Shown: piece after piece, positions 95 to 29,563 of the stretch
Position numbering within the stretch: the stretch's first letter is position 1
Layout: every line of letters begins with the position of its first letter
Assembly (NCBI GenBank): GCA_029269725.1
Contig: JARJHS010000002.1
Span: 1 to 64,000, forward strand
Source: Pollutibacter soli
GTDB taxonomy: Bacteria > Bacteroidota > Bacteroidia > Chitinophagales > Chitinophagaceae
Direction: 5' to 3'
DNA: 64,000 nt
Notes under the pieces: model-generated
What the model was told of the DNA's origin: nothing
Databases searched by the model: none
Seen by the model: the letters and a program-made list of their open reading frames with translations, nothing else
Translations under genes and position numbers: made by a program

Positions 95-214
95 CTGCCG
101 GCAGGCAGGCTCCTCTCTCCTGCCTCAACACTAACTTTATACTTTCCACTTTGTACTCATAACTTAACTTCGCAGATCGTACCTATAACTTCTTACTTCA
201 AACCTTTAACTTAA
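95..214. repeat. Heptad-repeat intergenic element 1
   Basis: The whole gap before uvrB is built from degenerate 7-base steps. It opens with a 10-base palindrome, CTGCCGGCAG (95-104), continues with CTCCTGC-type units and turns into units of the form ACTTnnn (ACTTTAT, ACTTTCC, ACTTTGT, ACTTCTT, ACTTCAA) that run almost to the GTG start of uvrB. The 7-base step is seen directly; the units diverge by 1-4 bases from one another. It must contain the uvrB leader. Confidence 0.7.
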
Positions 215-218
215 AAAA

Positions 219-2258
219 GTGCCTTTTCAGCTACAATCAACATATGCCCCTGCAGGTGATCAGCCTGAAGCGATAAAGCAACTGGTGCAGGGAATCCAAT
301 CCGGAGAGCAATACCAGACATTATTAGGTGTTACAGGTTCAGGAAAAACATTCACTATTGCGAACGTGATACAGCAGGTACAAAAGCCTACGCTGGTGCT
401 CACACACAACAAAACTCTGGTGGCGCAATTGTATGGCGAATTCAAACAGTTTTTTCCTGATAATGCAGTTGGTTATTTTGTTTCCTACTATGATTACTTC
501 CAGCCGGAAGCCTACCTGCCTGTAAGCGATGTGTACATTGAAAAAGATCTTTCGATCAATGAAGAACTCGACAAACTCAGGCTGCAGGCAACTGCACAGT
601 TATTGTCCGGAAGAAGAGATATCATCGTTGTTGCTTCCGTGAGTTGTATATATGGTATCGGTAATCCGACGGAATTTGAAAACGGTATTATCAGGATACA
701 AAAGGGACAGGTGATCAGTCGCCAGGGATTTTTGCATTCACTGGTGAATTCATTATACAATCGCTCACAACTCGAATTCAACCGCGCGACATTTCGTGTA
801 AAAGGAGATACGGTGGATATCAATCTTCCTTATGTTGATTATGGTTACCGCATTACATTCTTTGGAGATGAAATCGAAGAGATTGAAAGCATTGAAATAA
901 ACAGCGGCAAGAGAATAGGTGTGATGGAGAATGCTGCCATCTTCCCCGCCAATCTATATCTCGCTCCAAAAGATCAGCTGCAACAGATACTTGCCGAGAT
1001 CCAGGATGAGATGGCAAAACAGGTGGAATATTTTAAAGCATCCGGGAAATATATTGAAGCACAGCGTTTGAGCGAACGCGTAAACTTCGACGTTGAAATG
1101 ATTCGCGAACTCGGCTATTGCAATGGCGTCGAAAACTACTCGCGTTTCTTCGACCGCCGACCTCCAGGTACAAGACCTTTCTGCCTGCTCGATTATTTCC
1201 CAAATGATTTTCTCTGCGTGGTGGATGAGAGTCACCAGACCATCCCGCAGGTAAGTGGCATGTATGGCGGTGACAGAAGCAGAAAAATGATTTTGGTTGA
1301 TTATGGTTTCCGTTTGCCTTCTGCGCTGGATAACCGTCCTCTCAATTTTCACGAATTCGAATCCCTCGTTAATCAAACCATTTATGTTTCTGCAACGCCA
1401 GGTGAATATGAACTGGAGAAAACCGGCGGCGTTGTTGTGGAACAGGTTGTGCGACCCACAGGACTTCTGGATCCGCCGATCGAAATCAGGCCCAGTGTAA
1501 ATCAGATTGATGATCTTCTGGATGAAATTGACAAGACCATCAAAAAAGGTGATCGTGTTCTGGTAACTACCCTAACTAAAAGGATGGCTGAAGAGATGGA
1601 TAAATATCTTCACCGCATTAATATAAAATCAAAATACATTCACAGCGAAGTACACACCCTCGATCGTGTTGAAATTCTTCGTCAGCTTCGGTTAGGCGAG
1701 ATCGATGTACTCGTGGGTGTGAACCTGTTGCGTGAAGGTCTTGATCTCCCGGAAGTTTCACTCGTGGCTATTCTTGATGCAGATAAAGAAGGATATCTCA
1801 GGAATGAAAAATCTTTAACACAGACCGCTGGTCGTGCCGCGCGAAATGCTGAGGGACGTGTTATTTTTTATGCTGATATCATGACCGGCAGTATGCAAAA
1901 GACGATTGACGAAACCAATCGTCGCCGGGATAAACAAATTGCGTTTAACCTCGAACATAATATCGAACCGCAAACGGTCAGAAAAAGTAAGGAGCAGGTG
2001 TTCGCCCAGACATCAGTGCTCGACATCAAGGGGTATGATCTCAGAGATCCAAATGCATTGGGGCCGGATGCCGAACTGGTACCAGCTGTTGCCGAGGATC
2101 AGGCTGTTTACCAGACCATTCCCCAGGTGGAAAAGGCCATCAAGCAAACCAAAAAGACGATGGAAAAGGCTGCCCGTGACCTGGATTTTATGGAAGCTGC
2201 CCGTCTTCGCGATGAAATGTTCAGGCTTCAGAAACAACTCGAAGGAATGCAGAACTGA
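219..2258 (+). CDS. uvrB: UvrABC excinuclease subunit B
   Basis: UvrB is the damage-verifying helicase of nucleotide excision repair; it is loaded by UvrA and recruits UvrC for incision. At 679 residues it has the usual family length and is complete. Visible signatures: Walker A GVTGSGKT (37-44), the aromatic beta-hairpin around YYDYFQPEAYLP (90-101) that clamps one DNA strand, the DESH box near residue 336, the SATPG motif near 391, the motif VI segment QTAGRAAR near 535, and a C-terminal UVR motif (about 640-675) that contacts UvrC. The start is GTG, chosen because MPFQLQSTYAPAGDQP matches the normal UvrB N terminus. No other uvr gene is adjacent. The gene stands between two heptad-repeat elements, so it is probably transcribed alone. 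Confidence 0.98.
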   Translation: MPFQLQSTYAPAGDQPEAIKQLVQGIQSGEQYQTLLGVTGSGKTFTIANVIQQVQKPTLVLTHNKTLVAQLYGEFKQFFPDNAVGYFVSYYDYFQPEAYLPVSDVYIEKDLSINEELDKLRLQATAQLLSGRRDIIVVASVSCIYGIGNPTEFENGIIRIQKGQVISRQGFLHSLVNSLYNRSQLEFNRATFRVKGDTVDINLPYVDYGYRITFFGDEIEEIESIEINSGKRIGVMENAAIFPANLYLAPKDQLQQILAEIQDEMAKQVEYFKASGKYIEAQRLSERVNFDVEMIRELGYCNGVENYSRFFDRRPPGTRPFCLLDYFPNDFLCVVDESHQTIPQVSGMYGGDRSRKMILVDYGFRLPSALDNRPLNFHEFESLVNQTIYVSATPGEYELEKTGGVVVEQVVRPTGLLDPPIEIRPSVNQIDDLLDEIDKTIKKGDRVLVTTLTKRMAEEMDKYLHRINIKSKYIHSEVHTLDRVEILRQLRLGEIDVLVGVNLLREGLDLPEVSLVAILDADKEGYLRNEKSLTQTAGRAARNAEGRVIFYADIMTGSMQKTIDETNRRRDKQIAFNLEHNIEPQTVRKSKEQVFAQTSVLDIKGYDLRDPNALGPDAELVPAVAEDQAVYQTIPQVEKAIKQTKKTMEKAARDLDFMEAARLRDEMFRLQKQLEGMQN

Positions 2259-2282
2259 GCTCGCTTAATCGGTGCTTAGTTT

Positions 2283-2391
2283 AATGTTGAAAGTTGAAAG
2301 TTAAACGAAGTTGCACATACACAGCCGGTCTCAGCAGGTGGGCTGTTCCGCTTTCCACCTTCAACTTTTCACTTTAAACTTTCTAAAAATC
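2283..2391. repeat. Heptad-repeat element 2 with ACAGCC/GGCTGT core hairpin
   Basis: The left arm is GTTGAAA-type units (2286-2305). The right arm is the opposite orientation, ACTTTTC/ACTTTAA/ACTTTCT units (2365-2385). Between them a hairpin core has ACAGCC at 2321-2326 and GGCTGT at 2341-2346. The arms are roughly complementary, so the RNA could fold as a long imperfect stem behind uvrB and may act as its terminator (inference). The same core recurs in the element at 23778-23922. Confidence 0.7.
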
Positions 2392-2471
2392 GCTTAGTTT
2401 GCGAAACAATTTTTCCGGCTGTGATGCCGGTATTAACAGTATTTGAAACGATATCAGGATCCATGTGTAAA

Positions 2472-4307
2472 ATGAAAAGAACCCTTTCTTCTCTGCTCGT
2501 TTTCTCCATCGCCAGTCTATCACTTTTTGCCCAGGAAAAAAGTTACCGCCTCACCAGTCTGGCGCTGGATGACCTCTCTCAGTTTTCATCGCCCGGAGCC
2601 AACTGGACGATCGGAAGCGGAATCAAAGCCGCTTACACCGACACCGTTTTTTCCATCACCCAGGGCAAAGGAGTTTTAGTGAACAATGTTAAGCCAGGAG
2701 ATCATACCGGCAAAAACCTGGTAACGAAACTCACTCATGGTGACATGTACATTGAGCTGGATTACAACGTGCCGAAAGGCTCCAATTCCGGAATTTATTT
2801 CCAGGGCAGGTATGAAATTCAGATCTATGACAGCTGGGGCGTGCAGCGACCAAAAGTATACGATAATGGAAGCATCTATGAAAGGTGGGATGAAAGCAAG
2901 CCCGAGGGTCAAAAAGGATATGAAGGACATCCTGCATTGGTGAATGCATCCTTTGCTCCCGGCCTCTGGCAGCATCTCGAAGCATTTTTCCAGGCACCGA
3001 GGTTTGACGCAGCAGGAAAAAAGATCAGTGATGCCCGTTTTCTTTTTGTAAAACTGAATGGCATTACGATCCATGAAAATATTATCGTGCATGGACCGAC
3101 GCGAGCAGCGATGTTTAAAGATGAAGCAGCTACTGGTCCGATTATGATCCAGGGCGATCATGGGCAGGTGGCCATCAGAAATGTAAAGTATGCGCCGCAG
3201 AATGAATTGAAAGTGGCACTGAAAGATGTCAACTATAAATATTACGAAGGCACTTTTGAAAACGATCAAAAAGCGTTCGCTACAAAACCTACGCGCGAAG
3301 GCAAAACAGATCTTCTCGATTCACGCCTGGCTGATGCACGCAATGGATATGCGCTCGCCTTCGATGGAAAACTCGAAGTGCCTGAGAACGACAACTACTT
3401 CTTCACCCTGCTGTACAGCGGCGAAGGCACACTCGAAATCGATGGCAAACCTGTTATCAATAAAAAATCTACCTGGATTTTTGCAGAACCACTCACCGGA
3501 AGCGCTGAACTGAGTGCTGGCACTCATAATCTGAAATTATGGTACAATAAGCAGGTGAACTGGCAACCCCCTGGATTGAGTCTGTTTATTCAGAAGCCCA
3601 ACTCCAAAGCAGTTGCATTGCATACTACATCATCGATGCCGGAAAGACGTAACTCCCCCTTGATTGCAGTGGAGTCATTGAAAGGTCCGGAGATGGTCCG
3701 TTCGTTTCAGTTCCGTGGTGATAAAAAACTCACGCATGTAATGTCAGTTGGTAGTCCTTCTGAAGTAAACTATTCCTACAATCTTTTGCAGGGCGGATTG
3801 CTCCAGGTTTGGAAAGGTGATTTTCTGAATGTAACCGAGATGTGGTATCAGCGCGGTGAACCGCAGATCTCCATGCCGATGGGTGCGCCTGTGGTGCTTT
3901 CAGGAATCAACCCTGTTCTGACCGATCCTGCAACATTGGTAGATTCAATCGCAGGCCTGTCATACAAAGGCTATAAGATCAACACGCAGGGGTATCCGGT
4001 GTATATGTATGAGAAAGATGCTCTTAAAATCGAAGATGCGATTCAACCTTTTGAAAACAACAGAGGAATCGAACGCAGCATCAGTATTACAAATACAGCA
4101 TCAGCCCCTAAACTCAGTTTCAGAATTGCCGAAGGAAAAAATCTAGTTTCGCTCGGTAACGGATTATATGCCGCTGACGATCAGAGTTATTATGTAAAAC
4201 TGATTTCAGCACCATCAACCCAGCCAACGATGCTGAACAGCAATGGGAAACAGGTAATGACCATACCTGCTGCAAACAATGCTTTGAAATACGCCATTAT
4301 CTGGTAA
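2472..4307 (+). CDS. Secreted DUF1080 (3-keto-disaccharide hydrolase-like) protein with PA14-like domain
   Basis: Probable periplasmic or surface protein acting on sugars. DUF1080 (PF06439) is a concanavalin-like fold now linked to hydrolysis of 3-keto-glycosides. The ATG at 2472 is chosen over upstream in-frame starts at 2421 and 2463 because it directly begins a signal peptide (MKRTLSSLLVFSIASLSLFA). The DUF1080 part spans about residues 30-235, with the family segments NSGIYFQGRYEIQIYDSWG, KLNGITIHEN and GPIMIQGDHG. A PA14-like beta domain follows (about 255-385, with YSGEGTLEIDGKPV and LSAGTHNLKLWY). The last 220 residues are not recognised. The next gene starts 30 bases downstream on the same strand, so the two are probably co-transcribed. 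No hydrolase active-site residues can be named from sequence alone. Confidence 0.82.
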   Translation: MKRTLSSLLVFSIASLSLFAQEKSYRLTSLALDDLSQFSSPGANWTIGSGIKAAYTDTVFSITQGKGVLVNNVKPGDHTGKNLVTKLTHGDMYIELDYNVPKGSNSGIYFQGRYEIQIYDSWGVQRPKVYDNGSIYERWDESKPEGQKGYEGHPALVNASFAPGLWQHLEAFFQAPRFDAAGKKISDARFLFVKLNGITIHENIIVHGPTRAAMFKDEAATGPIMIQGDHGQVAIRNVKYAPQNELKVALKDVNYKYYEGTFENDQKAFATKPTREGKTDLLDSRLADARNGYALAFDGKLEVPENDNYFFTLLYSGEGTLEIDGKPVINKKSTWIFAEPLTGSAELSAGTHNLKLWYNKQVNWQPPGLSLFIQKPNSKAVALHTTSSMPERRNSPLIAVESLKGPEMVRSFQFRGDKKLTHVMSVGSPSEVNYSYNLLQGGLLQVWKGDFLNVTEMWYQRGEPQISMPMGAPVVLSGINPVLTDPATLVDSIAGLSYKGYKINTQGYPVYMYEKDALKIEDAIQPFENNRGIERSISITNTASAPKLSFRIAEGKNLVSLGNGLYAADDQSYYVKLISAPSTQPTMLNSNGKQVMTIPAANNALKYAIIW

Positions 4308-4337
4308 GATTTTATTCAATTTTACTTTCCTTCAATT

Positions 4338-6377: not shown

Positions 6378-6378
6378 G

Positions 6379-6672
6379 GACGCAGGAGAGGGGAGGCAGG
6401 AGAGGTAGTAGACAGGTCATAGGGATAAGCAATAGTAAATGGCAAAAACGTAAATCACAGAAAGTAGTCAAAACAGACTCATAAATTAAACTCAAATAGT
6501 TTTTTTGAAAAAACCTCCATTCAGGAGGTTTTTTTATTTCTCATTTCCCAAAAGACAACGTTTTTATGGTCGTTATTTGCTACCGGAAACCCGGGCATTT
6601 TCGAATTTAATCAAGCCTGCTTCTGTCTTCTACACCCTAAATCTCCTGCCTCCCCTCTCCTGCCTGCTCACT
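6379..6672. repeat. Heptad-repeat element 3: perfect 22-bp inverted arms around a terminator
   Basis: The left arm 6382-6403 and right arm 6642-6663 are exact reverse complements over 22 bases, both made of 7-base steps (GGCAGGA and CTCCTGC types), 238 bases apart. The spacer holds the rho-independent terminator at 6508-6535 and otherwise no recognisable gene; a short open frame starting at 6505 arises from that terminator and is not believed. This accounts for the 323-base gap between the azurin fusion and parA. Confidence 0.85.
6508..6535 (+). terminator. Rho-independent terminator after the DUF1080/azurin operon
   Basis: Stem AAAAAACCTCC / GGAGGTTTTTT with loop ATTCA, followed by T-rich sequence. 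It lies 130 bases after the stop of the azurin fusion. Being A-rich on the 5' side and T-rich on the 3' side, it could work in both directions. Confidence 0.85.
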
Positions 6673-6700
6673 ATTTTTCCTATCTTCAAAAAAAACCCCA

Positions 6701-7438
6701 ATGACAACCATTGCCCTGTACAATCTCAAAGGTGGTGTTGGAAAAACCGCTTCCAGCGTGAACATGGCATATCTCTCCGCTAAGGAAGGAATGAAAACTT
6801 TGTTATGGGATATCGACCCGCAGGGATCATCATCATTTTATTTCCAGGTAAAACACAAAGTGAAAGGCGGTATCAAAAAAATTCTTTCTCCTGATACTGA
6901 CCCTGAAGACCTGATTACAGCAACCGATTTTGAAAACCTGGATATCATTACAGCGGATCAATCGGCAAAAGGACTGGACCTGCTGCTGGAAGAAATGCAA
7001 ACCGGAAAAAAGCGTTTGAAAAATGCGCTTAGCCGTTTCAGTAAGAAGTACCAGATTGTCATTATCGACTGTCCTCCCGGACTTTCTGCGCTTGCAGAAA
7101 ATATCTTTTTTGCATCAGATATTGTGTTGATGCCGATGATACCTACAACCTTATCATTGAGAACATACCAGATGGTAAAAGATTTTTTTAAGGATAGGGA
7201 TCTTGACCTCTCTAAGCTGATGTGCTTTTTTACGATGGTCGATCTCCGGAAAAATATGCATCACGAAATCATGGATCAGTTGTTTAAAGACAAGAGATTT
7301 TTCAGCAATTACATTCCCTACCTTTCTGACGTAGAAAAAATGGGCGTTCATCTCTCGCCGGTGGAAGCGTTTGCGCCAAACAGTTATGCTGCCAGATGCT
7401 ACAGTGATCTCTGGGATGAAATCCGCGAAGGACTGTGA
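6701..7438 (+). CDS. ParA/Soj-type ATPase without an adjacent ParB
   Basis: Member of the deviant Walker A family (ParA/MinD), which form ATP-dependent dimers on DNA or membrane to place cargo. It is complete at 245 residues, beginning MTTIALYNLKGGVGKT with the deviant P-loop KGGVGKT at 10-16. The switch segment LLWDIDPQGS follows near residue 38, and a Walker B-like VIIDCPPGLSALAE is near residue 126. The N terminus is short, with no DNA-binding helix-turn-helix as in plasmid type Ia ParA. No parB, parS or cargo gene (flagellar, chemotaxis, carboxysome) is beside it; neighbours are an esterase and polA, and heptad-repeat elements flank it on both sides. It is therefore an orphan ParA with unknown cargo. 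Confidence 0.9.
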   Translation: MTTIALYNLKGGVGKTASSVNMAYLSAKEGMKTLLWDIDPQGSSSFYFQVKHKVKGGIKKILSPDTDPEDLITATDFENLDIITADQSAKGLDLLLEEMQTGKKRLKNALSRFSKKYQIVIIDCPPGLSALAENIFFASDIVLMPMIPTTLSLRTYQMVKDFFKDRDLDLSKLMCFFTMVDLRKNMHHEIMDQLFKDKRFFSNYIPYLSDVEKMGVHLSPVEAFAPNSYAARCYSDLWDEIREGL

Positions 7439-7440
7439 TG

Positions 7441-7490
7441 CAAAACGTACAACGTTAAACGTTAAACGTTTTGCGGTTTACGTTAAACCT
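7441..7490. repeat. Heptad-repeat element 4
   Basis: Immediately after the parA stop there are about six 7-base units of the ACGTnnn type (ACGTACA, ACGTTAA twice, ACGTTTT, ACGTTAA). CAAAACGT at the start and ACGTTTTG further on are inverted, so a single short hairpin can form. It separates parA from the esterase gene and may end parA transcription (inference). Confidence 0.7.
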
Positions 7491-7520
7491 TTCTTCTTAT
7501 CTTACATAAAACATCTTGAT

Positions 7521-8249: not shown

Positions 8250-8276
8250 AGAAAGATCAAAGGATGTGTAGTGGAG

Positions 8277-8388
8277 GTTGAACGTAAAACGTAAAACCTC
8301 GCATATGAATTTGGTTCCAATTCAACAAGATTTCCAAAGAACGGGTTCCGACGTTAAACGTTATACGTTATACGTTTTACGTTAACTT
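8277..8388. repeat. Heptad-repeat element 5, facing ACGTnnn arms
   Basis: The left arm (8277-8297) has GAACGTA then AAACGTA units. The right arm (8350-8386) has ACGTTAA, ACGTTAT (twice), ACGTTTT, ACGTTAA. The reverse complement of the right arm carries AACGTAAAACGTA, as the left arm does, so the two face each other across about 50 bases. The right arm ends just before the polA start codon; TAACTTCG at 8383-8390 resembles a -10 box but has no clear -33 partner. Confidence 0.8.
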
Positions 8389-8394
8389 CGAACG

Positions 8395-11217
8395 ATGGAA
8401 AAAAAGCTGTTTCTGCTGGATGCCTACGCGCTCATCTTTCGTGCGTATTATGCCCTGATACGTGCGCCGCGCATCACCAGTAAAGGAAGGAATACGAATG
8501 CTCAGTTTGGATTCACAAATACGTTGATCGAGTTGCTGACAAAACAGAAGCCCACACATATGGCCGTTTGTTTTGACACCGCAGCACCCACAGAACGTCA
8601 CACAGATTTTGATCAGTACAAAGCGAACCGGCAGGAAACACCTGAAGACCTTTCTGCTGCTGTTCCTGATATCAAAAAAATTATCCAGGGTTTTAATGTT
8701 CCGGTAATTGAAAGCGATGGATATGAAGCGGATGATGTGATAGGAACACTTGCCAAACAGGCGGAGAAAGAAGGATACACGGTGTATATGGTGACGCCCG
8801 ATAAAGATTATGGTCAGCTTGTAACTGAGCATATAAAAATTTATAAGCCCGCGTACCAGGGCGGCGATGTGGAGATCATGGGACCGAAAGAAGTTTGTGA
8901 AAAATGGAACATCAGATCAGTGAGCCAGGTGATTGATGTACTGGGTCTGATGGGCGATGCTGTTGATAACATCCCCGGGATTGCCGGTGTTGGTGAAAAG
9001 ACCGCTGCAAAATTGCTTGCAGAATATGAAACGCTCGAAAACATTCTACATAACGCCGACAATATCAAAGGTGCACTGGGTGAAAAGGTGCGCAAAGGGA
9101 AAGAGATGGCGGTGCTGAGTAAAAAACTTGCAACCATTATTACCAATGCTCCTGTACAGTTTCATGAAGATGATTATTGTGTGAAAGAGATGAACAAACC
9201 ATTGCTGAGAGAAGTGTTTGCCGATCTTGAATTCAAAACAATCGGAAAAAGAATTCTTGGAGAAGATATTGCTCCTGTCGAAACAACTTCTCCCGTCATC
9301 CCGCAAGGTGTTCAGCAGGATCTTTTTGGTAACGTTGTGCCTGCCGCAGAGGTGTCCGTTGAGGTTCTGGAAGTCGCAGTCGCATCTTTTACCTCGGACA
9401 GGAATATCAACAATACGCCGCACAACTATATCAGCGTTACAGATCAGAATGAAATGGCTGCGCTGGTGAAAAACCTGCAATCACATACCGAAATCTGTTT
9501 TGATACGGAAACCACCGGCATCGATGCAAACAATGCAGAACTGGTTGGATTGAGTTTTTCAGTGACGCCCGGAGAAGGATGGTATATTCCTTGTCCGGCC
9601 AATAAAGCAGAAACCAATAACATACTTACCATTTTTGATCCTCTTTTCAATGACGCATCAAAAACCTGGATCGGTCACAACATCAAATACGATATGCTGA
9701 TCCTGCGATGGTATGATCGTTTCCTGGCGGGAAAAGTTTTCGATACCATGCTCGCACATTATGTAGTTGATCCGGAAGGAAAAAGATCGATGGACCAGTT
9801 AAGCGAACAGCTCCTCCGTTATGAACCTATTCATATTGAAGAGTTAATTGGCAAGAAGGGAAAGGGCCAGGGTACCATGCGCGATGTTGAGCTGGAGAAA
9901 ATAAAAGAGTATGCGGTAGAAGATGCAGACATCACTTTGCAACTGCAAAAGGTGCTGCTGCCAATGTTGAAAGAGAAAGATGTGGAGAAAGTATTTTATG
10001 AGGTAGAAAATCCATTGGTGAAAGTGCTGACGGATATGGAGTTTGAAGGTATCCGCATTGATGAAGGCTTTCTGAAAGATTATTCAAAGGAACTGGAAAG
10101 AGAAGCAAAAAACTCCGAAGAAAAAGTGTACCAGCTTGCAGGAGTACGTTTCAATCTTTCTTCACCCAGGCAATTAGGTGAGGTTCTTTTTGAAAAGCTT
10201 CAGCTGGATCCCAAAGCAAAAAAAACAAAGACGGGACAATATGCAACTGGTGAAGATGTATTGCAGAAACTGGCGCATCAGAATCCGATAGTTGAAGATA
10301 TACTGGCTTATCGCGAGCTGACAAAACTTAAGTCCACTTATGTTGACTCACTTCCCCTACTGATCAATCCTAAGACAGGACGAGTACATACCACTTACGG
10401 TCAGGCAGTAGCTGTTACCGGCAGATTGGCCAGTAATAATCCAAATCTTCAGAATATTCCAGTAAGAACAGACAGAGGGAAGGAGATCCGAAAAGCGTTT
10501 ATTGCCAGAGACAATGATCATGTTCTTCTCTCTGCAGACTATTCACAGATAGAATTAAGGATTGTTGCTGCCATCAGTGCAGATCCGAACATGTGTGAAG
10601 CTTTCCGTTCCGGAAAAGATATTCATACTGCCACTGCTGCACGCGTTTATGGTGTTCCGGAAAATGAAGTGACCAAAGAGATGAGATATAAAGCGAAGAG
10701 CGTCAATTTCGGCATCATCTATGGCCAGGGCGCATTTGGCCTTGCAGACAACCTCGGGATCAGCCGTACGGAAGCAAAAGCGATCATTGACAATTACAAG
10801 AAAGAGTTTGCTGGAATCACTTCGTATATGGAAGATACTATCAATTTTGCCAGGGAAAGAGGATATGTACAAACTCTGATGGGCAGAAAACGCTGGCTAC
10901 GGGATATCAATTCATCGAATTTCACGGTGCGTGGTTTTGCAGAACGAAATGCGATCAATTCTCCCATACAGGGCACTGCTGCGGATATGATCAAGATGGC
11001 GATGGTAAAAGTGCAGCAGGAAATGAAAAAACAAAGGTTCAAAAGCAGGATGATCCTGCAGGTACATGATGAGCTTGTATTCGATGTACACAAAAATGAA
11101 ATCAATGAAATAAAATCTCTCGTAATTGAGAATATGCAAACTGCTATGCCATTGCCCAATGGAGTGCCTGTGATTGCAGAAGCTGGTACCGGACACAACT
11201 GGCTGGAAGCACATTAA
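8395..11217 (+). CDS. polA: DNA polymerase I with intact proofreading
   Basis: A complete 940-residue family A polymerase for gap filling and RNA primer removal. Domains: 5'-nuclease (about 1-290, with YKANRQETPED, SDGYEADDVIGT and GDAVDNIPGI), 3'-5' exonuclease (about 345-525) and polymerase (about 560-940). All three exonuclease motifs are present: DTETTG, GHNIKYD and YAVEDAD, so proofreading should be active, unlike in many thermophile or Gram-positive homologues. Polymerase motif A is LSADYSQIELR, motif B KSVNFGIIYGQG and motif C QVHDELVFDV. ATG at 8395 is the natural start. The acyltransferase gene begins 22 bases after the polA stop and may be co-transcribed. Confidence 0.98.
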   Translation: MEKKLFLLDAYALIFRAYYALIRAPRITSKGRNTNAQFGFTNTLIELLTKQKPTHMAVCFDTAAPTERHTDFDQYKANRQETPEDLSAAVPDIKKIIQGFNVPVIESDGYEADDVIGTLAKQAEKEGYTVYMVTPDKDYGQLVTEHIKIYKPAYQGGDVEIMGPKEVCEKWNIRSVSQVIDVLGLMGDAVDNIPGIAGVGEKTAAKLLAEYETLENILHNADNIKGALGEKVRKGKEMAVLSKKLATIITNAPVQFHEDDYCVKEMNKPLLREVFADLEFKTIGKRILGEDIAPVETTSPVIPQGVQQDLFGNVVPAAEVSVEVLEVAVASFTSDRNINNTPHNYISVTDQNEMAALVKNLQSHTEICFDTETTGIDANNAELVGLSFSVTPGEGWYIPCPANKAETNNILTIFDPLFNDASKTWIGHNIKYDMLILRWYDRFLAGKVFDTMLAHYVVDPEGKRSMDQLSEQLLRYEPIHIEELIGKKGKGQGTMRDVELEKIKEYAVEDADITLQLQKVLLPMLKEKDVEKVFYEVENPLVKVLTDMEFEGIRIDEGFLKDYSKELEREAKNSEEKVYQLAGVRFNLSSPRQLGEVLFEKLQLDPKAKKTKTGQYATGEDVLQKLAHQNPIVEDILAYRELTKLKSTYVDSLPLLINPKTGRVHTTYGQAVAVTGRLASNNPNLQNIPVRTDRGKEIRKAFIARDNDHVLLSADYSQIELRIVAAISADPNMCEAFRSGKDIHTATAARVYGVPENEVTKEMRYKAKSVNFGIIYGQGAFGLADNLGISRTEAKAIIDNYKKEFAGITSYMEDTINFARERGYVQTLMGRKRWLRDINSSNFTVRGFAERNAINSPIQGTAADMIKMAMVKVQQEMKKQRFKSRMILQVHDELVFDVHKNEINEIKSLVIENMQTAMPLPNGVPVIAEAGTGHNWLEAH

Positions 11218-11936: not shown

Positions 11937-12692
11937 ATGAAATACTGGAACGCATACCTGAGGTACTGGGAAAATATAGGTGGCCGCTATTTTATGGTTG
12001 CTGGGATCGCATTTATCGTTTTTTATATTTTGCTCCGGGTAATTGCGCGCAATAAAAAAATTCAGCACAAATACCCGGCGATAAAAGATTACGCAAGAGA
12101 AATCGGTTACTCCGTAATGACCATCAGTATTTTTTCATTGATACCGGTAATTTTTGTGATCAACCCGGTGATTTCTCCGCATACAACGATGTATCGCAAT
12201 ATTGCTGATTATGGAATGGTATACTACATCTTCGCCTATCCATTGATGTTTGTTATGCACGACACTTATTTTTATTGGGTTCACCGACTCATGCATCATA
12301 AGAATATATTTCCTTATTTCCATTTGGTGCATCATCAGTCAACCAATCCGTCTCCCTGGGCGGCGTATGCATTTCATCCGTTGGAAGCTGTAGTTGAAGC
12401 AGGTATATTCATTATTTTCCTGTTTACGATTCCCATGCATACTTCTCATTTTTATATTTTCTTTTTCCTTTCCATTATATACAATGTGTATGGCCATCTT
12501 GGCTGGGAGCTCTACCCAAAAGGCTTCAGCAAAAGCTTTATCGGTAAATGGATCAACACTTCTGTAAATCATAACCAGCACCATCAGCATTTCAAAGGTA
12601 ACTATGGTTTGTACTTTTTATTCTGGGACCGTCTGATGGGAACGATCAGGAAAGATTATGATCAGAAGTTTGAGGAAGTCAAAAGACGTTGA
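11937..12692 (+). CDS. Sterol desaturase / fatty acid hydroxylase family membrane protein
   Basis: A 251-residue membrane di-iron oxygenase-like protein. The eight-histidine pattern is present: HDTYFYWVHRLMHH, then HLVHHQSTNP, then NHNQHHQHF, matching H-x3-4-H, H-x2-HH and H-x2-HH of the FA_hydroxylase family (PF04116). At least four hydrophobic segments occur (about 16-35, 55-80, 95-120, 160-200). ATG 11937 (MKYWNAYLRYWENIGG) is chosen; the frame is open back to 11844, but that stretch reads through the 36-bp palindrome and is non-homologous in character. Substrate unknown; in this phylum relatives hydroxylate lipids or carotenoids, or are alkylglycerol monooxygenase-like. Confidence 0.88.
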   Translation: MKYWNAYLRYWENIGGRYFMVAGIAFIVFYILLRVIARNKKIQHKYPAIKDYAREIGYSVMTISIFSLIPVIFVINPVISPHTTMYRNIADYGMVYYIFAYPLMFVMHDTYFYWVHRLMHHKNIFPYFHLVHHQSTNPSPWAAYAFHPLEAVVEAGIFIIFLFTIPMHTSHFYIFFFLSIIYNVYGHLGWELYPKGFSKSFIGKWINTSVNHNQHHQHFKGNYGLYFLFWDRLMGTIRKDYDQKFEEVKRR

Positions 12693-12793
12693 ACGTGTAA
12701 CGTTGAACGTAAACGAATCAAGGCTTGTTAAATATGGTACTTTCTTTACCTTCATAGGCTTACGTTGAACGTTCAACGTATCACGTTTCACAA
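12687..12793. repeat. Heptad-repeat element 6, facing ACGTnnn arms
   Basis: The left arm (12687-12714) carries ACGTGTA, ACGTTGA, ACGTAAA and overlaps the hydroxylase stop region. The right arm (12761-12793) carries ACGTTGA, ACGTTCA, ACGTATC, ACGTTTC and ends at the DsbA-like start. The reverse complement of the right arm matches the left arm almost base for base over about 19 bases (AACGTG, then ACGTTGAACGT). The spacer holds a promoter. Confidence 0.8.
12725..12754 (+). promoter_or_regulatory. Probable promoter for the DsbA-like gene
   Basis: TTG at 12725-12727, 19 bases, then TACCTTCA at 12747-12754. This fits the Bacteroidota TTG-N19-TAnnTTTG pattern with two mismatches in the -10 box. 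It sits between the two repeat arms, so the right arm would lie in the 5' untranslated leader. Confidence 0.5.
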
Positions 12794-12794
12794 C

Positions 12795-13457
12795 ATGACT
12801 CCCACAATCTATTACTGTTACGATGCTTACTGCGGATGGTGTTTTGGCTTTAGTACGGTCATCTTTCGTATATATGAAGAATACAAAGACAGGCTGTTTT
12901 TTGAAACGCTTTCAGGAAATATGATTCCGAACGAATACGCGCAGCCCATCGGAAAAATGGCCGGATACATTAACCAGGCTTACAAGGTCGTGGAAGAAAG
13001 AACCGGCATAAGGTTCGGCGAGGATTATCTCTGGCATATCCGCAATCCGGATCTGAGCGACTGGGTTCCCAGTTCTGAAAAGCCAGCAATTGCCATGGTT
13101 GTATTCAAGGAATACTATCCTGAAAAATCTGTTGAGTTTGCAAAGGATCTGCAAACGGCTCTACATGTTGAAGGCCGCGACCTTACAGACGATGAAGCCT
13201 ACCGGCACCTGCTGGCAAAATACAATATTCCGGCAGCGGATTTTTACAGGAAGTTACACAGCGAAGAAAGCAAGCATGCAGCCTATATGGAATTTTCCAT
13301 GGTGAAACAGCTGCAGGTAACTGGTTTTCCGGCAGTATTTATGCAGGTAAGTGAAACAAAATTCTATCTTTTGTCACGCGGCTTTACCGAATACGAAAGT
13401 CTGAAAACTACTATCGACAAAGTTTTAAAGGAAAGAGAAGCGGACGTAAGTTCCTGA
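12795..13457 (+). CDS. DsbA-family thiol oxidoreductase-like protein (CGWC)
   Basis: A 220-residue thioredoxin-fold protein of the DsbA/FrnE/2-hydroxychromene-2-carboxylate isomerase group (COG3531-like). The redox site is C13-G-W-C16 in YYCYDAYCGWCFGFS, right at the N terminus after the first strand. The cis-proline loop is TGFPAVFMQ near residue 189. There is a helical insertion in the middle. No signal peptide, so it is cytosolic; related cytosolic proteins take part in oxidative-stress thiol chemistry. ATG 12795 is chosen because the upstream in-frame codons run through the heptad repeat. Confidence 0.85.
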   Translation: MTPTIYYCYDAYCGWCFGFSTVIFRIYEEYKDRLFFETLSGNMIPNEYAQPIGKMAGYINQAYKVVEERTGIRFGEDYLWHIRNPDLSDWVPSSEKPAIAMVVFKEYYPEKSVEFAKDLQTALHVEGRDLTDDEAYRHLLAKYNIPAADFYRKLHSEESKHAAYMEFSMVKQLQVTGFPAVFMQVSETKFYLLSRGFTEYESLKTTIDKVLKEREADVSS

Positions 13458-23772: not shown

Positions 23773-23777
23773 AATTG

Positions 23778-23922
23778 TAAGTTAAATGAGTTCGGCGTTG
23801 TTCGTTCATCGTTCTTCGTTCATCGTTCTTCGTTCATCGTTGTTCGTTGACAGCCACTGGTTCTGAACCAGAACAAAATATGGCTGTTCCCTTCTTACAA
23901 CTTAATACTTACTACCTAATTC
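23778..23922. repeat. Heptad-repeat element 7 with nested ACAGCC/GGCTGT hairpin
   Basis: A run of about seven 7-base units, TTCGTTC alternating with ATCGTTC, fills 23801-23849. A nested hairpin follows: ACAGCCA (23850-23856) with TGGCTGT (23881-23887), holding the palindrome CTGGTTCTGAACCAG inside. To its right come ACTTAAT, ACTTACT and ACCTAAT units. The outer TTGTAAG near 23775 and CTTACAA near 23895 are also inverted. It fills the gap between the VOC and SRPBCC genes. Confidence 0.8.
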
Positions 23923-24312
23923 CTACTGTGGAATACTGTGCAGACCGATTCGATTTCCTTCGGTATCAATAAACACTCCCATATATCCGATCTCAGGTGA
24001 TATCTGCGTTTTGGGGACAGTTACTTTTCCGCCAGCGCCCTCTACTTTATCAAGAATTGCAGCAACATCAGGATTTCCATTCAGATAGATCAACGGTCCG
24101 TCCGTTGCAGATGGCACATGAAAACCATCTGTATAAACCAATGCACCTCCAATTCCTGTCATCATATTCCTGATAGGAAATGAGCGCATCTTCATATTTG
24201 GAAAATCCATTGCCTGGAGTTCAAATCCGAATATCGTTTCATAAAATTTCTGAGCCCGGGCTAAGTCTTTTGTAGGTATTTCAAACCAGCTGATTGCATT
24301 GTCAGGTGCCAT
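23923..24312 (-). CDS. VOC-superfamily (glyoxalase/dioxygenase-fold) protein
   Basis: 129 residues with the vicinal-oxygen-chelate fold. The typical opening is ISWFEIPTKDLARAQKFYETIFGFEL; the second beta-alpha-beta-beta-beta unit begins at AILDKVEGAGGKV and ends IGYMGVFIDTEGNRIGLHS. Probable metal ligands (Glu or His at strand ends) are not certain. It resembles the CFP32/27-kDa antigen-type group of small VOC proteins with no fixed substrate. It lies upstream of the SRPBCC gene on the same strand. Confidence 0.85.
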   Translation of the reverse strand: MAPDNAISWFEIPTKDLARAQKFYETIFGFELQAMDFPNMKMRSFPIRNMMTGIGGALVYTDGFHVPSATDGPLIYLNGNPDVAAILDKVEGAGGKVTVPKTQISPEIGYMGVFIDTEGNRIGLHSIPQ

Positions 24313-24377: not shown

Positions 24378-24791
24378 TCATCTCCATAGCCCAATGATGG
24401 CGCCCATGAGCGTAAGAGCAACGATACTGTATCCGCCGTTAATAAAGATCAGGCGCCAGGTTTTATGTTCGAATAATCCGTGTACTGCGACAAAACAAAA
24501 GACCCAGACAGAGGCCAGGAATCCGGCAATGGCGCCCCAGGAGACATCCGTTTTCTTTTCCGGTGAATCCACCAGGAACATGGCGAGATTCGCTGCAGCG
24601 ATCAGCGTGAGAATAAACGCCCAGCCGTAGATTTTCGCAGCGTTTCCTTTTTTGACATCTTCCACGGTGAGGTTGTTTTCCTTCATCCAGGCTTTGCCAA
24701 AAAGAGCAGGCGAATACCATACGCCACCAACGACAAAAGCTGAAATACCGGCTACGAGAACGGCCAGCCAATTGATAGAGCCCATTTCCAT
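24378..24791 (-). CDS. DUF1761 family four-helix membrane protein
   Basis: 137 residues with four hydrophobic helices (about 5-27, 52-75, 82-104, 113-135). The family N terminus is visible: NWLAVLVAGISAFVVGGVWYSPALFGKAWM. Function unknown across the family. It is divergent from the histidine kinase gene, with about 57 bases between the start codons. Confidence 0.85.
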   Translation of the reverse strand: MEMGSINWLAVLVAGISAFVVGGVWYSPALFGKAWMKENNLTVEDVKKGNAAKIYGWAFILTLIAAANLAMFLVDSPEKKTDVSWGAIAGFLASVWVFCFVAVHGLFEHKTWRLIFINGGYSIVALTLMGAIIGLWR

Positions 24792-24848
24792 ACACTAAGT
24801 TTGAGGGTTAAAAATGATGTAAAACCGAATCTATTTGGTAATTTTTGG

Positions 24849-25952: not shown

Positions 25953-25971
25953 ACAGCCCTAATTTTCCGGA

Positions 25972-26727
25972 ATGAAAGTGGTGATCATTGAAGACGAAAC
26001 ACCGGCAGCTGACAAGCTTCAAAAAGCAATTCAGAAAACTGATAAAGCACCTGAAGTTATTGCCATACTCCAAAGCGTACATGCGGCAGTTCAATGGTTC
26101 TCTGAAAATCCGGCTCCCGACCTGATCTTCATGGATATTGAACTCACTGACGGGCACTCATTTTCAATATTCGAAAAAGTAAATATCACCTGTCCGATCA
26201 TCTTTATTACAGCATATGATGATTACTGGCAGACGGCATTTGAATATAACAGTATCGACTACCTGTTGAAACCATTAAAGCAGGAAAAGCTCGAAGCGGC
26301 GCTACAGAAGTATGATAAGCTGAAAAGACATTTCAACGACAATTTCCAGCAGTTGATGAAATATCGGGGCGATACACAAGAGCCCGTATTAAAAAAAAGA
26401 ATGCTGGTAAAAAAAGGCTCCGATTATGTCAGCGTAATAATTTCCGACATCGCCTATTTCTACGCCACCCATAAACTGATTTGCCTGGTTGATAAGGAAG
26501 GAAGAAAATTCATACTCGATCAATCCCTATCCGAAATTGAAAAGCAAGTGGATCCAGCATTGTTCTACCGGGTCAACCGAAAGTATCTTGTAAATATGAA
26601 TGCTATCAAAAGAATAAGAACATATCCGAAAAGTAAATTACTGCTGGAAATCGATCCTCCGATTGAAGAAGAAATTATCATCAGCCAGGAAAATGTAATG
26701 GCGTTCAAGGAGTGGATGGATAGATGA
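25972..26727 (+). CDS. LytTR-type response regulator
   Basis: 251 residues. Receiver domain (about 1-118) with acidic pocket E7, D8 and phosphoacceptor D55 in LIFMDIEL, switch Thr in FITAYDD, and Lys in LLKPLK. A LytTR DNA-binding domain (about 140-245; SVIISDIAYFYATHKL, FYRVNRKYLVNMNAIK) follows. It is partner of the kinase encoded just upstream; such pairs usually control a few nearby or membrane-related genes. The target is not evident here. Confidence 0.92.
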   Translation: MKVVIIEDETPAADKLQKAIQKTDKAPEVIAILQSVHAAVQWFSENPAPDLIFMDIELTDGHSFSIFEKVNITCPIIFITAYDDYWQTAFEYNSIDYLLKPLKQEKLEAALQKYDKLKRHFNDNFQQLMKYRGDTQEPVLKKRMLVKKGSDYVSVIISDIAYFYATHKLICLVDKEGRKFILDQSLSEIEKQVDPALFYRVNRKYLVNMNAIKRIRTYPKSKLLLEIDPPIEEEIIISQENVMAFKEWMDR

Positions 26728-26932
26728 GGCAGGAGTGAGGAGTGAGCCGGCAGGAGGCTTAGAATATAGATGATAGTAACAAGCCCCCGAAAATGATGGA
26801 GGCTTTATAATGAATGAATTCAAGTACTGGTGATTTTCTAAAAATTCAGGCTCCCATCCAATAAATGCCTGATCCTGTAAACTTTTCACTAAATCTCCTG
26901 CCTGCCCACTCCTGCCTCCTTACTAACAAAAA
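26726..26932. repeat. Heptad-repeat element 8, facing arms
   Basis: The left arm (26726-26759) starts at the stop codon of the response regulator and has GGCAGGA/GTGAGGA-type units. The right arm (26894-26928) has CTCCTGC-type units. GAGGCAGGAGTG (26726-26737) and CACTCCTGCCTC (26907-26918) are exact reverse complements. The spacer of about 150 bases holds no gene I can recognise. Confidence 0.8.
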
Positions 26933-26964
26933 TTGCCTAAATTGCAGCCTGTTTAAATTTAACC

Positions 26965-27582
26965 ATGGAATACAATAAGATCATTTCTGTAACCGGTTTG
27001 CCGGGTTTGTATGAGCTGATAAGCAGCAAAAACGATGGAGCAATCGTTCGTTCACTTGACGATAAGAGCACAAAATTTGTATCCAGCAGGATACACAATT
27101 TCTCTCACCTGGAAAGTATTGAGGTATATACGACCGGTGATAATGTAAACCTGGCAGAGGTTTTTGAAGCAATGAAAAATTCAGGTGATAAACTGCCTGA
27201 TGAAAAGGACGCGAACGCAGTAAAAAAATATTTTGAAAAAATTTTTCCCACGATAGATTTTTCAAGAGTATATAACAACGACATGAAGAAAATGATTCGT
27301 TGGTATAGTCTGCTTGATGCAAGTGGTGTAGAAATAAAAGTTCCGGTGGAACAAGAAGAAGTTGAAGAAGAAGAAGTAGTAGTTGTCGAGGAAGTAGCTG
27401 AGGAGCCCAAAGCTGCCGCGAAACCGAAGGCGTCAAAAAAGGCAGCGCCCGCTGATAAAGAGGAAAAGGAAAAAGAGGAGGCGCCTGCAAAAAAATCAGC
27501 TTCAAAGAAAGCGGAACCTAAAGAAGAAGCAGCTCCGAAAAAAACAAAAGCTGCCACTGCGAAAAAGAAAAAAGAAGATTAA
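26965..27582 (+). CDS. DUF5606 domain protein with a Lys/Ala/Glu-rich tail
   Basis: 205 residues. The first ~125 residues match the Bacteroidota-specific DUF5606 (MEYNKIISVTGLPGLYELIS at the start, DFSRVYNNDMKKMIRWYSLL at its end). Residues 130-205 are low-complexity, first acidic (EEVEEEEVVVV), then alternating KKA, PKE and AAPK blocks like a histone-H1/PAKKA tail. Such tails usually bind nucleic acid or are flexible. Function unknown. It ends at a terminator hairpin. Confidence 0.85.
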   Translation: MEYNKIISVTGLPGLYELISSKNDGAIVRSLDDKSTKFVSSRIHNFSHLESIEVYTTGDNVNLAEVFEAMKNSGDKLPDEKDANAVKKYFEKIFPTIDFSRVYNNDMKKMIRWYSLLDASGVEIKVPVEQEEVEEEEVVVVEEVAEEPKAAAKPKASKKAAPADKEEKEKEEAPAKKSASKKAEPKEEAAPKKTKAATAKKKKED

Positions 27583-27598
27583 TCTTTTCTCATATTTG

Positions 27599-27638
27599 AA
27601 ACCGGTCAGTGTGCATTTTCCTGCGGCTGATCGGTTTT
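27599..27638 (+). terminator. Terminator after the DUF5606 gene
   Basis: AAACCGGTCAG (27599-27609) pairs with CTGATCGGTTT (27627-27637) with one mismatch, loop 17 bases, then a short T run. Confidence 0.75.
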
Positions 27639-27654
27639 ACATTAAATACCTGCC

Positions 27655-29373
27655 ATGAAATATTCAGCCGACATAAAAAAGATCAAGCGCCATTTTCTTC
27701 CCGAGAACTTTGCTGTCACCGATTGGGAAACACTTGAACCTTACTTTAAAGATCTGTCTGATCGGAAGATCAATTCGAAAGCAGACCTGGAACAATGGTT
27801 GAAAGATATAAGTGAAGTGGAAGCGGTGATCAGTGAGGATGCCTGCTGGAGGCAGATAAGAATGACCTGCGATACAGAGAATAAAGAGTTCGAATCCGCT
27901 TTCAATTTCTTCTATACGCAGATACAACCAAAGATTCAGCCGTTTGCAGATTTGCTGAATCGAAAACTGATCGACTCTCCTTTTACCGGCCAGCTCGATC
28001 AGAAAAAATATTTTACATACCTGCGTTCAGTGAAAAAGAATATTGAATTATTCAGGGACGCTAATATTCCGCTGCAATCTGAATTAAGCGTACTGCAGCA
28101 ACAGTATGGCGCTATTTCCGGAAAAATGACTGTGGAAATTGATGGTCGTGAATACACGATGCAACAGGCAACACGTTTCCTGGAGCAACCCGACAGATCG
28201 GTCAGAGAAAAAGTATACTATAAAATTGCAGAACGCAGGTTGCAGGATAAAGATCAGTTAAACGATTTGTTCACCAGGCTGCTGTCACTGCGTCAACAGG
28301 TAGCGGTAAACGCTGGTTTTTCAAATTACCGTGATTACAAATTTGTGGAGATGGGGCGCTTTGACTATACACCTGCAGATTGTTACCTGTTTCATGAATC
28401 GGTAAGAAAGGAAGTATTGCCATTGGTGAATGAGATCTATGCATACAAGAAAAAGAAATTATCAATTGATGATTTGCGACCATGGGATCTTGATGCGGAA
28501 CCGGAAGGAATTCAGCCGTTGAAGCCTTTTGTTTCCGGTGAAGAGTTGCTTGAAAAAACAATTGCATGTTTTGAGAAGCTTGATCCTTTTTTTGCCGGAT
28601 GTCTGAAAAAAATGAACCAGTTAAAACACCTGGATCTCACGAGCAGGAAAGGAAAAGCACCGGGCGGTTATAATATGCCGTTATCAGAAAGCGGCGCACC
28701 ATTTATTTTCATGAATGCATCCGGACAAATGTCCGATGTTACAACAATGGTTCATGAGGGTGGTCATGCTGTTCATTCCTTTCTTGCGCATCACCTGGAG
28801 TTAACTTCTTTCAAAGAATATCCGACCGAGATGGCAGAAGTGGCAAGTATGGCAATGGAATTATTCAGCATGGACTACTGGGACGTGTTTTTTGATAATG
28901 AAGAAGAGCTTCGTCGTGCAAAACGTCATCAGCTGGAAAGAGTAATTACCATATTTCCGTGGATAGCAATCGTAGATAAATTTCAACATTGGTTGTATGA
29001 AAATCCCGGACATACTATTGAAGAAAGAACAGCGAACTGGGTAAGAATACAAAATGAATTTTCCTCTGAAATGGTTGATTTTACAGGGCTCGACAAGTTC
29101 AGGCAGATCAGCTGGCAAAGACAATTGCATTTATTTGAAGTTCCTTTTTATTATATCGAATATGGCATCGCGCAATTGGGTGCAATTGGAATGTGGAAGC
29201 AGTTCAGAGAAGATAAAGCTAAAGCCCTAAGTAATTATACGCACGCATTAAACCTCGGTGGTACTAAAACGTTACCTGAGTTGTATGCAGCTGCTGGCCT
29301 GTCTTTTGATTTCTCACCGGAAAGAATTAATGATTTAATCACATTTGTAAGAAATGAATTAAACAAATATTGA
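27655..29373 (+). CDS. M3 family oligoendopeptidase (PepF/thimet-like)
   Basis: 572-residue cytosolic zinc peptidase that cleaves short peptides. The zinc motif is HEGGH (H367, H371) with E368 as general base, and the third ligand Glu395 is in the downstream MAEVASMAMELF helix. The N-terminal alpha-helical half (about 1-330) caps the active site, as in the family. Size and architecture match the M3B oligoendopeptidase F group. It stands alone between two terminators. No signal peptide. Confidence 0.95.
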   Translation: MKYSADIKKIKRHFLPENFAVTDWETLEPYFKDLSDRKINSKADLEQWLKDISEVEAVISEDACWRQIRMTCDTENKEFESAFNFFYTQIQPKIQPFADLLNRKLIDSPFTGQLDQKKYFTYLRSVKKNIELFRDANIPLQSELSVLQQQYGAISGKMTVEIDGREYTMQQATRFLEQPDRSVREKVYYKIAERRLQDKDQLNDLFTRLLSLRQQVAVNAGFSNYRDYKFVEMGRFDYTPADCYLFHESVRKEVLPLVNEIYAYKKKKLSIDDLRPWDLDAEPEGIQPLKPFVSGEELLEKTIACFEKLDPFFAGCLKKMNQLKHLDLTSRKGKAPGGYNMPLSESGAPFIFMNASGQMSDVTTMVHEGGHAVHSFLAHHLELTSFKEYPTEMAEVASMAMELFSMDYWDVFFDNEEELRRAKRHQLERVITIFPWIAIVDKFQHWLYENPGHTIEERTANWVRIQNEFSSEMVDFTGLDKFRQISWQRQLHLFEVPFYYIEYGIAQLGAIGMWKQFREDKAKALSNYTHALNLGGTKTLPELYAAAGLSFDFSPERINDLITFVRNELNKY

Positions 29374-29493
29374 AAATACCACGATTAGGGTATATCAAAT
29401 TCTTGAAGGAATAAAATGATCCCAATATATTTGCTCTATCAAATCAAAAATAATATCTCCGATATAAAATAGCTACTAATCAGAGCCTTAACC

Positions 29494-29523
29494 AAAGTCC
29501 CGATGTTTCCACATCGGGGCTTT
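29494..29523. terminator. Hairpin terminator, CCCCGATG family
   Basis: AAAGTCCCGATGT (29494-29506) pairs with ACATCGGGGCTTT (29511-29523), loop TTCC, then a T-rich stretch. It lies 120 bases past the M3 peptidase stop. The core is nearly the same as in the hairpin at 60937-60975. Confidence 0.85.
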
Positions 29524-29542
29524 CTTTTTAAGTAAATGGGAA

Positions 29543-29563
29543 GAGGTGAGAAGTGAGAAGTTC
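29543..29563. repeat. Heptad-repeat element 9 (single short arm)
   Basis: Three 7-base units, GAGGTGA, GAAGTGA and GAAGTTC, stand in a row. No facing arm is visible, so this is the weakest member of the set. Confidence 0.45.

Follow-up and report, generated by a model that had tools for sequence, protein, structure and literature searches.

Facing arrays of short words as probable ends of small intergenic S23-type elements

In a 64,000-nt stretch of Pollutibacter soli DNA (contig JARJHS010000002.1, positions 1 to 64,000; hereafter the window), several gaps between genes hold runs of degenerate 7-base units, often arranged as two facing arms. These arms are probably the ends of small intergenic S23-type elements, some of which contain a gene of the S23 (four-helix-bundle) family, and of relatives without an open reading frame (ORF). 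Most of the S23 genes sampled were bracketed by such arms, in Bacteroidota, in Cyanobacteria and, at two loci, in Chloroflexota, and ORF-less gaps of P. soli carried the words of its S23 elements. A first-pass annotation had described the shared period and the facing layout in the window; this observation was right, and of larger scale than it had stated.

The element would be laid out as an inward array of a 7- or 8-nt word, sometimes the box AACAGCC, a core, sometimes the box GGCTGTT, and the word array in reverse. The core of some copies would contain the S23 gene, and the ORF-less copies would be non-autonomous relatives. Such an element may move, or have moved, as a unit into intergenic spaces, in P. 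soli mostly just 3' of stop codons. The maintained feature appears to be the word rather than a base-paired stem, and a nucleic-acid-binding factor might read it. We infer active movement from the presence and absence of the elements, and a reading protein from the conserved word.

Facing arms around S23 genes

Each left flank of an S23 gene was scored against the reverse-complemented right flank of the same locus, and the right flanks of the other loci supplied the expectation. The main set consisted of 61 Bacteroidota loci, eight from P. soli (G000) and 53 others with one best hit per genome; the latter were drawn from 58 genomes among the matches listed (140 genomes searched), of which five loci under 2500 bases were dropped. 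A flank match of at least 12 was observed for 42 of the 61 loci, compared with 3.35 expected, and of at least 16 for 27 of the 61, compared with 0.0 expected. Five loci retained in the set (L203, L208, L224, L226 and L254) are cut at contig ends and have one flank misplaced; without them, three being among the 42, the count at 12 or above was 39 of 56. A second set of 25 further hits from two genomes (G086 and G137), in which L359 and L360 are halves of one gene, gave 18 of 25 against 2.4 expected. Fourteen of 26 plasmid records were also scored (11 from Cyanobacteria, one from Bacteroidota and two from a single Chloroflexota strain), some of the records being related (L370, L371). Thirteen of these 14 reached 12, compared with 2.3 expected, and the sole miss was the Bacteroidota locus. 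Facing heptads enclose several S23 genes of P. soli; that of L180, for instance, is preceded by AGTTCATAGTTAACAGCC and followed by GGCTGTTAACTATGAACTATGAAC.

Flanks of ordinary genes behaved differently. For 547 genes of P. soli, 14 matches were found and 10.35 expected, and for 41 orthologues of the gene at 8395 to 11217 of the window the numbers were 4 and 1.6, with none reaching 14. The arrays in the S23 flanks were concentrated at few periods (55 at period 7, 14 at 8, 49 at 14, 7 at 15, and 0 to 3 at others), as were those of the plasmid set (35 at period 7, and 0 to 1 at the other periods from 4 to 13). One plasmid locus (L372) had a facing match without heptads. Eight of the 14 plasmid S23 loci (L362 to L365, L367, L368, L370 and L371) have neighbours that were read from the annotation as defence genes; the annotated neighbours include DUF1156 with Swt1-HEPN, DrmD with MmeI, a helicase with a methylase, or Cas proteins.

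Empty counterparts were sought for six elements (L233, L228, L366, L363, L373 and L371). At five of the sites (L233, L228, L373, L371 and L366) the arms and the S23 gene were jointly present or absent, and for the sixth (L363) the close relatives likewise carry the element. The L233 element of G086 is absent from G097, G113 and G128, which have 60 to 62 bp at the site, while G124 aligns through it; G116 lacks the L228 element of G085, which G081 and G127 share. A 502-bp insert in plasmid2 of Aulosira laxa has 25 bp as its counterpart both in plasmid1 of that strain and in a plasmid of Nostoc carneum. In that insert an AAATTCA array begins 6 nt inside the junction and a TTTTGAA array lies at the far end. 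The site of L371 spans 586 bp compared with 61 in a relative, its right arm overlapping cas1 at the annotated end of that gene, and that of L366 spans 422 bp compared with 188 in two relatives. In these plasmid comparisons, the arrays start at or close to the junctions of filled and empty sites, and the empty sites shown have none.

A second cargo gene is hinted at by the GxxExxY family (PF13366), for which three of the eight P. soli loci scored at least 14. At L188 (C33:281434) a GxxExxY gene lies between facing arms, with ACAGCC and GGCTGT. At C33:291446-292909 (L192, L195 to L197) another GxxExxY gene stands beside three partial copies spaced about 386 bp apart.

Heptad arrays in the P. soli genome and in the window

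The scale of the arrays was assessed in 1.2 Mb of the 6.1-Mb P. soli genome (C12:1-520000 and C1:1-680000), covering 722 gaps with 145 kb of intergenic sequence; a simple script based on codon scores supplied the gene calls, arrays were counted from a score of at least 10, and a first-order Markov model served as control. At lag 7, 122 intergenic arrays were found and 3.1 expected, so the excess at this lag proposed as a check in the first-pass annotation is present. Lags 5, 6, 8, 9, 10 and 11 gave 1, 7, 0, 3, 2 and 1 arrays, and each tested period from 2 to 22 that is not a multiple of 7 gave 0 to 8. Predicted coding sequence (1.05 Mb) held only 12 lag-7 arrays. The excess was also seen in relatives, mostly from Chitinophagaceae and allied groups (1.53 Mb in 92 loci), where arrays scoring at least 12 numbered 70 at lag 7, 18 at lag 8 and 0 to 6 at lags 4, 5, 10, 11 and 13. 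At two of these loci (L015 and L060) period-8 arrays adjoin period-7 arrays.

The arrays occupied 87 of the 722 gaps and recurred along both scanned contigs, and their confinement to the first 30 kb of the window, as originally described, did not hold. Within an array, G mostly outnumbered C when the array lay in the left half of its gap (48 of 66), and C outnumbered G when it lay in the right half (68 of 78; Fisher p 1e-13), a count that omits the 16 of 160 arrays with equal G and C; the majority was present for all four gene orientations. Placement was uneven: of 196 3' edges, 48 were within 5 nt (12.2 expected), compared with 5 of 124 5' edges (5.5 expected). Convergent gaps bore arrays most often (33 of 121) and divergent gaps the fewest per kb (11 of 148). 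The arms often have AACAGCC or GGCTGTT on their inner side; the GAACAGCC box was present in 14 of the 87 heptad gaps of P. soli and in 9 of the remaining 635, and the box was examined in P. soli and one relative (G040).

Fifty of the 87 heptad gaps share sequence with another gap. For the arm of one S23 element (L181, C1:92627), the top two matches among all other gaps were both gaps of the window, at 6378 (42.1 bits) and 26728 (38.2 bits), and five S23 arms of P. soli matched the ORF-less gaps of the same genome better than 40 foreign S23 arms did (p 0.00026). In G085, the arms of a single S23 element match dozens of other places. The earlier view that the letters are local to each gap was therefore correct in part, as the same words also recur across gaps, in dispersed families tied to elements with S23 genes.

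All nine gaps in which 7-base runs had been reported in the window hold 7- or 14-base steps at nearly the coordinates first given. For eight of them, all but 95-214, the best match between the two halves was compared with 200 mononucleotide shuffles. The features were as follows.

134 to 157, no strand assigned: right-type, C-rich heptads ACTTTnn; lag-7 score 8.2, weak and below the threshold of 10
2278 to 2305, + strand: left arm GTTGAAA (gap 2259-2420)
2321 to 2326, + strand: inner box ACAGCC, 3' of the left arm (gap 2259-2420)
2341 to 2346, + strand: inner box GGCTGT, 5' of the right arm (gap 2259-2420)
2346 to 2382, - strand: right arm TTCAACT, reverse complement of the left word (gap 2259-2420)
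6378 to 6408, + strand: left arm of GCAGGAGAGGGGAG type, immediately 3' of a stop codon
6637 to 6672, - strand: right arm CTCCTGCCTCCCCTCTCCTGCC; long stem, z -7.7
7444 to 7491, no strand assigned: one array of the self-complementary word AACGTTA (gap 7439-7500)
8272 to 8297, + strand: left arm AACGTAA (gap 8250-8394)
8351 to 8385, - strand: right arm ACGTTAT, just 5' of the gene start at 8395
12686 to 12710, + strand: left arm ACGTTGA, spanning the stop codon at 12690-12692
12762 to 12791, - strand: right arm ACGTTCA (gap 12680-12800)
23796 to 23849, + strand: left array TCGTTCA, 7.6 units, followed by the box ACAGCC at 23850
23882 to 23887, + strand: inner box GGCTGT (gap 23773-23930)
23894 to 23925, - strand: right array CTTACTA, a word unlike that of the left array (gap 23773-23930)
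26725 to 26755, + strand: left arm GGCAGGAGTGAGGAGTG, overlapping a stop codon
26895 to 26926, - strand: right arm CTCCTGCCTGCCCACTCCTGCCTCC (gap 26722-26964)
29542 to 29561, + strand: single array AGAAGTG, adjoining the S23 gene
29603 to 29959, - strand: S23/four-helix-bundle gene, 118 aa, predicted S23/Avd-type fold (TIGR02436, PF05635)

Five of the nine gaps exceeded all 200 shuffles, in agreement with the count of at least five facing pairs made at first. Their scores, with the shuffle maximum in brackets, were 16 (11) for gap 2259-2420, 23 (14) for 6378-6700, 15 (11) for 8250-8394, 18 (12) for 12680-12800 and 22 (16) for 26722-26964. The arms of 6378-6700 exceed the array threshold at lag 14 and not at lag 7, the 6378 arm contains GGGG, and the two arms (6378-6672) match exactly over 22 bases, an exception within a single dispersed family. 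Taken as a pair, the array in 7439-7500 was not significant (10; maximum 11), and the two arrays of 23773-23930, which differ in word, did not match (7; mean 6.7). The gap at 95-214 has only a right-type array adjoining the contig start and was taken as half an element, the partner of which would precede the contig start. The gene starting at 8395 is presumably that of DNA polymerase I, judging from its protein.

Other repeats were seen in the same material. At 60782-60993 and in the gap from 11804, the window has palindromes (CCAGGTATCCGATCTGCCGCGGCGGATCAGATACCTGG, CGCCAGATGTCCGACACTTGCAAGTGTCGGACATCTGG) resembling dispersed repetitive extragenic palindromic (REP) sequences and common to several gaps of the genome. 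A divergent gap close to where L148 and L149 join (C12:419853-420691) contains head-to-tail copies of a repeat some 114 bp long, with five ACAGCC boxes spaced 112 to 114 bp apart. Gaps in G040 (L002, L155 and L156) are full of palindromes of the GTTCCG..GGAAC and CCCTGGG types that alternate with GAAGTAC heptads.

Words, arms and the S23 protein

Two-sided arrays were available at 27 loci, of which 21 had period 7 in both arms, 4 had period 8 in both, none mixed 7 with 8, and 2 had others; L203 and L226 show an identical string on both sides and are doubtful, and without them the first two counts are 19 and 4. The constant step of 7 reported at first does not extend to the elements that use 8 in both arms. 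The arms match their own partner, and they change together between species, as had been anticipated. The gap at 7438-7491 has AACGTTA in the window and facing GAAGTAC/GTACTTC arms with ACAGCC in G040, and at a single site both arms of an S23 element carry CTAAG words in G085 and G081 but CAAAG words in G127.

The finer correspondence between arms was examined in pairs with scorable similar-word arrays on both sides (21 from S23 loci with 22 from gaps, or 20 with 18 in a set of 38). Fixed and free phases coincided between arms (r 0.61, compared with -0.10 after rotation; 0.56 for equal-consensus phases only) in pairs that had been chosen for matching consensus. When unit order was permuted, none of 43 pairs shared order at p<=0.05, while simulated inverted copies with 5 to 25% changes were detected in 17 to 20 of 46. 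The free letters of one arm were not linked to those of the other (exact unit matches in 89 of 971, compared with 86.5 +- 5.9), and the sense strand of 41 S23 elements had no wobble bias (80 G.U, 89 A.C). Since order and free letters are unshared and a G.U bias is lacking, a register-paired stem and inverted copying of an array were both rejected, and conservation of the word is favoured.

An origin in local mutation, by 7-nt polymerase slippage and template switching across a hairpin, with neither an element nor a reader, is the least probable of the alternatives weighed here. Among long simple repeats, those of seven nucleotides are the most frequent in most genomes, slippage has been proposed for them (Mrazek 2007, via PMC4679880 and PMC4692102), and exact unit repeats within arms did exceed those of column shuffles (327 against 282, p 0.012). 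Slippage followed by inversion had been offered as one cause in the first-pass annotation; as a copying process it fails on the unshared unit order and free letters, given that copies with up to 25% changes were detectable in the simulations. Fixed phases common to both arms, the bracketing of S23 genes and not of ordinary ones, and the appearance and disappearance of arms together with the S23 gene also speak against it. A slightly higher, still low, probability was given to the arms forming a long stem in the transcript that base pairing maintains, such as a hairpin at the ends of genes that resembles a terminator or is processed by RNase III. The arrays abut stop codons and favour convergent gaps, window gaps fold beyond their shuffles (z -2.0 to -7.7), and RNase III excises rRNA intervening sequences (PMC4990558). 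Set against this are the lack of a G.U excess on the S23 sense strand, the uncompensated free positions, the irrelevance of register, and the separate position of a terminator-like hairpin inside the 6378-6700 arms. That hairpin, at about 6505-6535, resembles an intrinsic terminator (AAAAAACCTCC ATTCA GGAGGTTTTTTT).

It is equally improbable that the S23 genes are passengers, inserted by an unrelated route into heptad-rich gaps of separate origin. Most heptad gaps of P. soli do lack an S23 gene or remnant, and the GGGAATC arrays of Xanthomonas have been described without a link to S23 ('four helix' was not found in PMC4692102), but on the plasmids array starts coincide or nearly coincide with the edges of the filled sites, and the empty sites shown contain no arrays. 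All four genomes without S23 lacked arrays in the sampled 100 kb each (one with 16 kb masked), but so did three of eight S23-bearing genomes in the sampled 100 kb (G124, with 11 genes, G118 and G111).

The last count also weighs against S23-type elements and their relatives as the source of the arms, as do several other results. Nineteen of the 61 main loci scored below 12; the array at 29542 had no partner across the S23 gene of the window (score 11, shuffled mean 10.8); and single window gaps fold well, so that the arms may have a role in RNA. Remnants of S23 genes in ORF-less gaps were not found at E below 0.7, heptad density in 12 genomes of the phylum did not correlate significantly with S23 copy number (rho 0.52, p 0.086), and the plasmid set showed no significant G/C skew (p 0.10). 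No target-site duplication was apparent by eye in the five filled/empty comparisons on plasmids, nor at the L233 and L228 sites; the aligned flanks are mostly 72 to 95% identical and a short duplication could therefore be missed. The empty plasmid sites hold 25 to 188 other bases, and the 60-bp empty gap of G113 and G097 looks heptad-like, so that gain and loss are not polarised there.

The word may be read by the S23 protein itself. The gene at 29603-29959 matched TIGR02436 (79.7 bits) and PF05635, '23S rRNA-intervening sequence protein' (62.7 bits). P. soli has eight four-helix-bundle matches, two with internal stops, and 61 of the 80 genomes sampled in the phylum had such genes. The window protein as modelled with AlphaFold2 (mean predicted local distance difference test score 96) matches the S23 proteins 2rld and 2gsc and, more weakly, Avd of a Bordetella phage retroelement, alone (4dwl) or in its ribonucleoprotein (8ub7), with E 0.03 to 0.1 and a template modelling (TM) score of about 0.75. 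The family is without known function, and a Xanthomonas S23 protein is a pentameric toroid, as cited in PMC4990558. An S23 ring, related to Avd by its modelled fold, is a tentative candidate for the reader. Of the causes first considered, a protein that reads the period fits best, with the S23 ring as a possible reader.

The TRAP ring binds its RNA repeats, and the median number of units per arm was 4.6 for S23 flanks and 4.1 for the gaps of P. soli; that one unit is held by each S23 subunit, by analogy with TRAP, is an attractive guess. Similarity of S23 proteins was correlated with that of their arms overall (rho 0.19, p 0.001), within genomes (rho 0.26, p 0.016) and between families (rho 0.17, p 0.002), a relationship also expected from co-inheritance of the element ends alone. 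The proteins of seven 8-mer elements were hardly more alike among themselves (0.377) than they were to the proteins of 7-mer elements (0.351), so that the period is no clear clade marker.

A wider proposal is slightly more doubtful than the reader itself: that these are a mobile element class of several phyla, in which an S23 ring would decode element-specific 7- or 8-nt words unit by unit (each subunit taking one word, and each arm having some four to five units), word and protein would change together, and the heptanucleotide repeats of bacteria would largely be its ends or relics. Heptanucleotide repeats are common and still lack an explanation, and if they and the S23 genes form one system, two old genome puzzles would join. 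Binding of an S23 ring to its own word and movement of the element would then become testable questions, and the reading of intergenic repeats next to stop codons would change in Bacteroidota and cyanobacteria.

Comparison with known repeats and intervening sequences

Heptads, facing heptads in Xanthomonas and S23-coding rRNA intervening sequences are already in print (PMC4692102, PMC4679880, PMC4990558), while no open-access report was found that joins heptads with S23 or describes intergenic S23 elements with repeat arms. Facing heptad arms were not known to the first-pass annotation from Bacteroidota, for which no description was found here either; in Xanthomonas, two genomes have 70 and 75 convergent GGGAATC pairs (PMC4692102). 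The GGGAATC and GGGGA(C/T)T heptads of Xanthomonas and Nostoc, the latter with few pairs, were explained there as G-quadruplexes. Like the present arms, they have fixed and free positions and mostly four units, lie on the coding strand near stop codons and are few between divergent genes, and facing pairs near stop codons are equally found here. Theirs is one G-rich word per genome, as far as described without a link to S23, whereas many words are used here, most of them without GGG. GGG was present in the unit consensus of none of 18 pairs from P. soli gaps and of 4 of 20 S23 pairs, so that the G-quadruplex trait is not shared; the 6378 arm with its GGGG lies outside these pairs.

The TAACTGA heptads of Beggiatoaceae, cyanobacteria and five Bacteroidetes are also intergenic, and other heptamers share gaps with them in some Bacteroidetes; they differ from the present arms in being a single word, mainly 5' of start codons, with one indirect repeat in the main genome (PMC4679880). 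The preference for period 7 is common to the heptanucleotide long simple sequence repeats (LSSRs; Mrazek 2007, via PMC4679880 and PMC4692102), and the intergenic excess of 7-nt tandem units typical of them was observed here (122 against 3.1). Neither a facing layout nor a linked gene is mentioned in the accessible accounts of LSSRs in those two papers.

Miniature inverted-repeat transposable elements (MITEs) and REP elements are dispersed, intergenic and have inverted-repeat ends. Dispersed copies with inverted ends were found here as well; no target-site duplication was apparent by eye, though a short one could be missed, no transposase was linked, and the ends vary from element to element. 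The S23 protein and Avd of diversity-generating retroelements resemble each other in predicted fold.

The elements also resemble the intervening sequences (IVSs) of 23S rRNA, which have an S23 four-helix-bundle ORF, complementary ends and a sporadic presence, with a length of about 430 nt in a described case (PMC4990558). The S23 / 23S_rRNA_IVP gene is found at 29603-29959 of the window and was not found in the ORF-less gaps, and the arm words are complementary and foldable, without a signal specific to pairing. No Rfam match, and so no sign of a position within 16S or 23S rRNA, was obtained in positions 1 to 32000 of the window or at 13 S23 loci. IVSs lie in rRNA helices, whereas the present elements lie between protein genes, end in arrays of 7- or 8-nt words and in many cases have no ORF.

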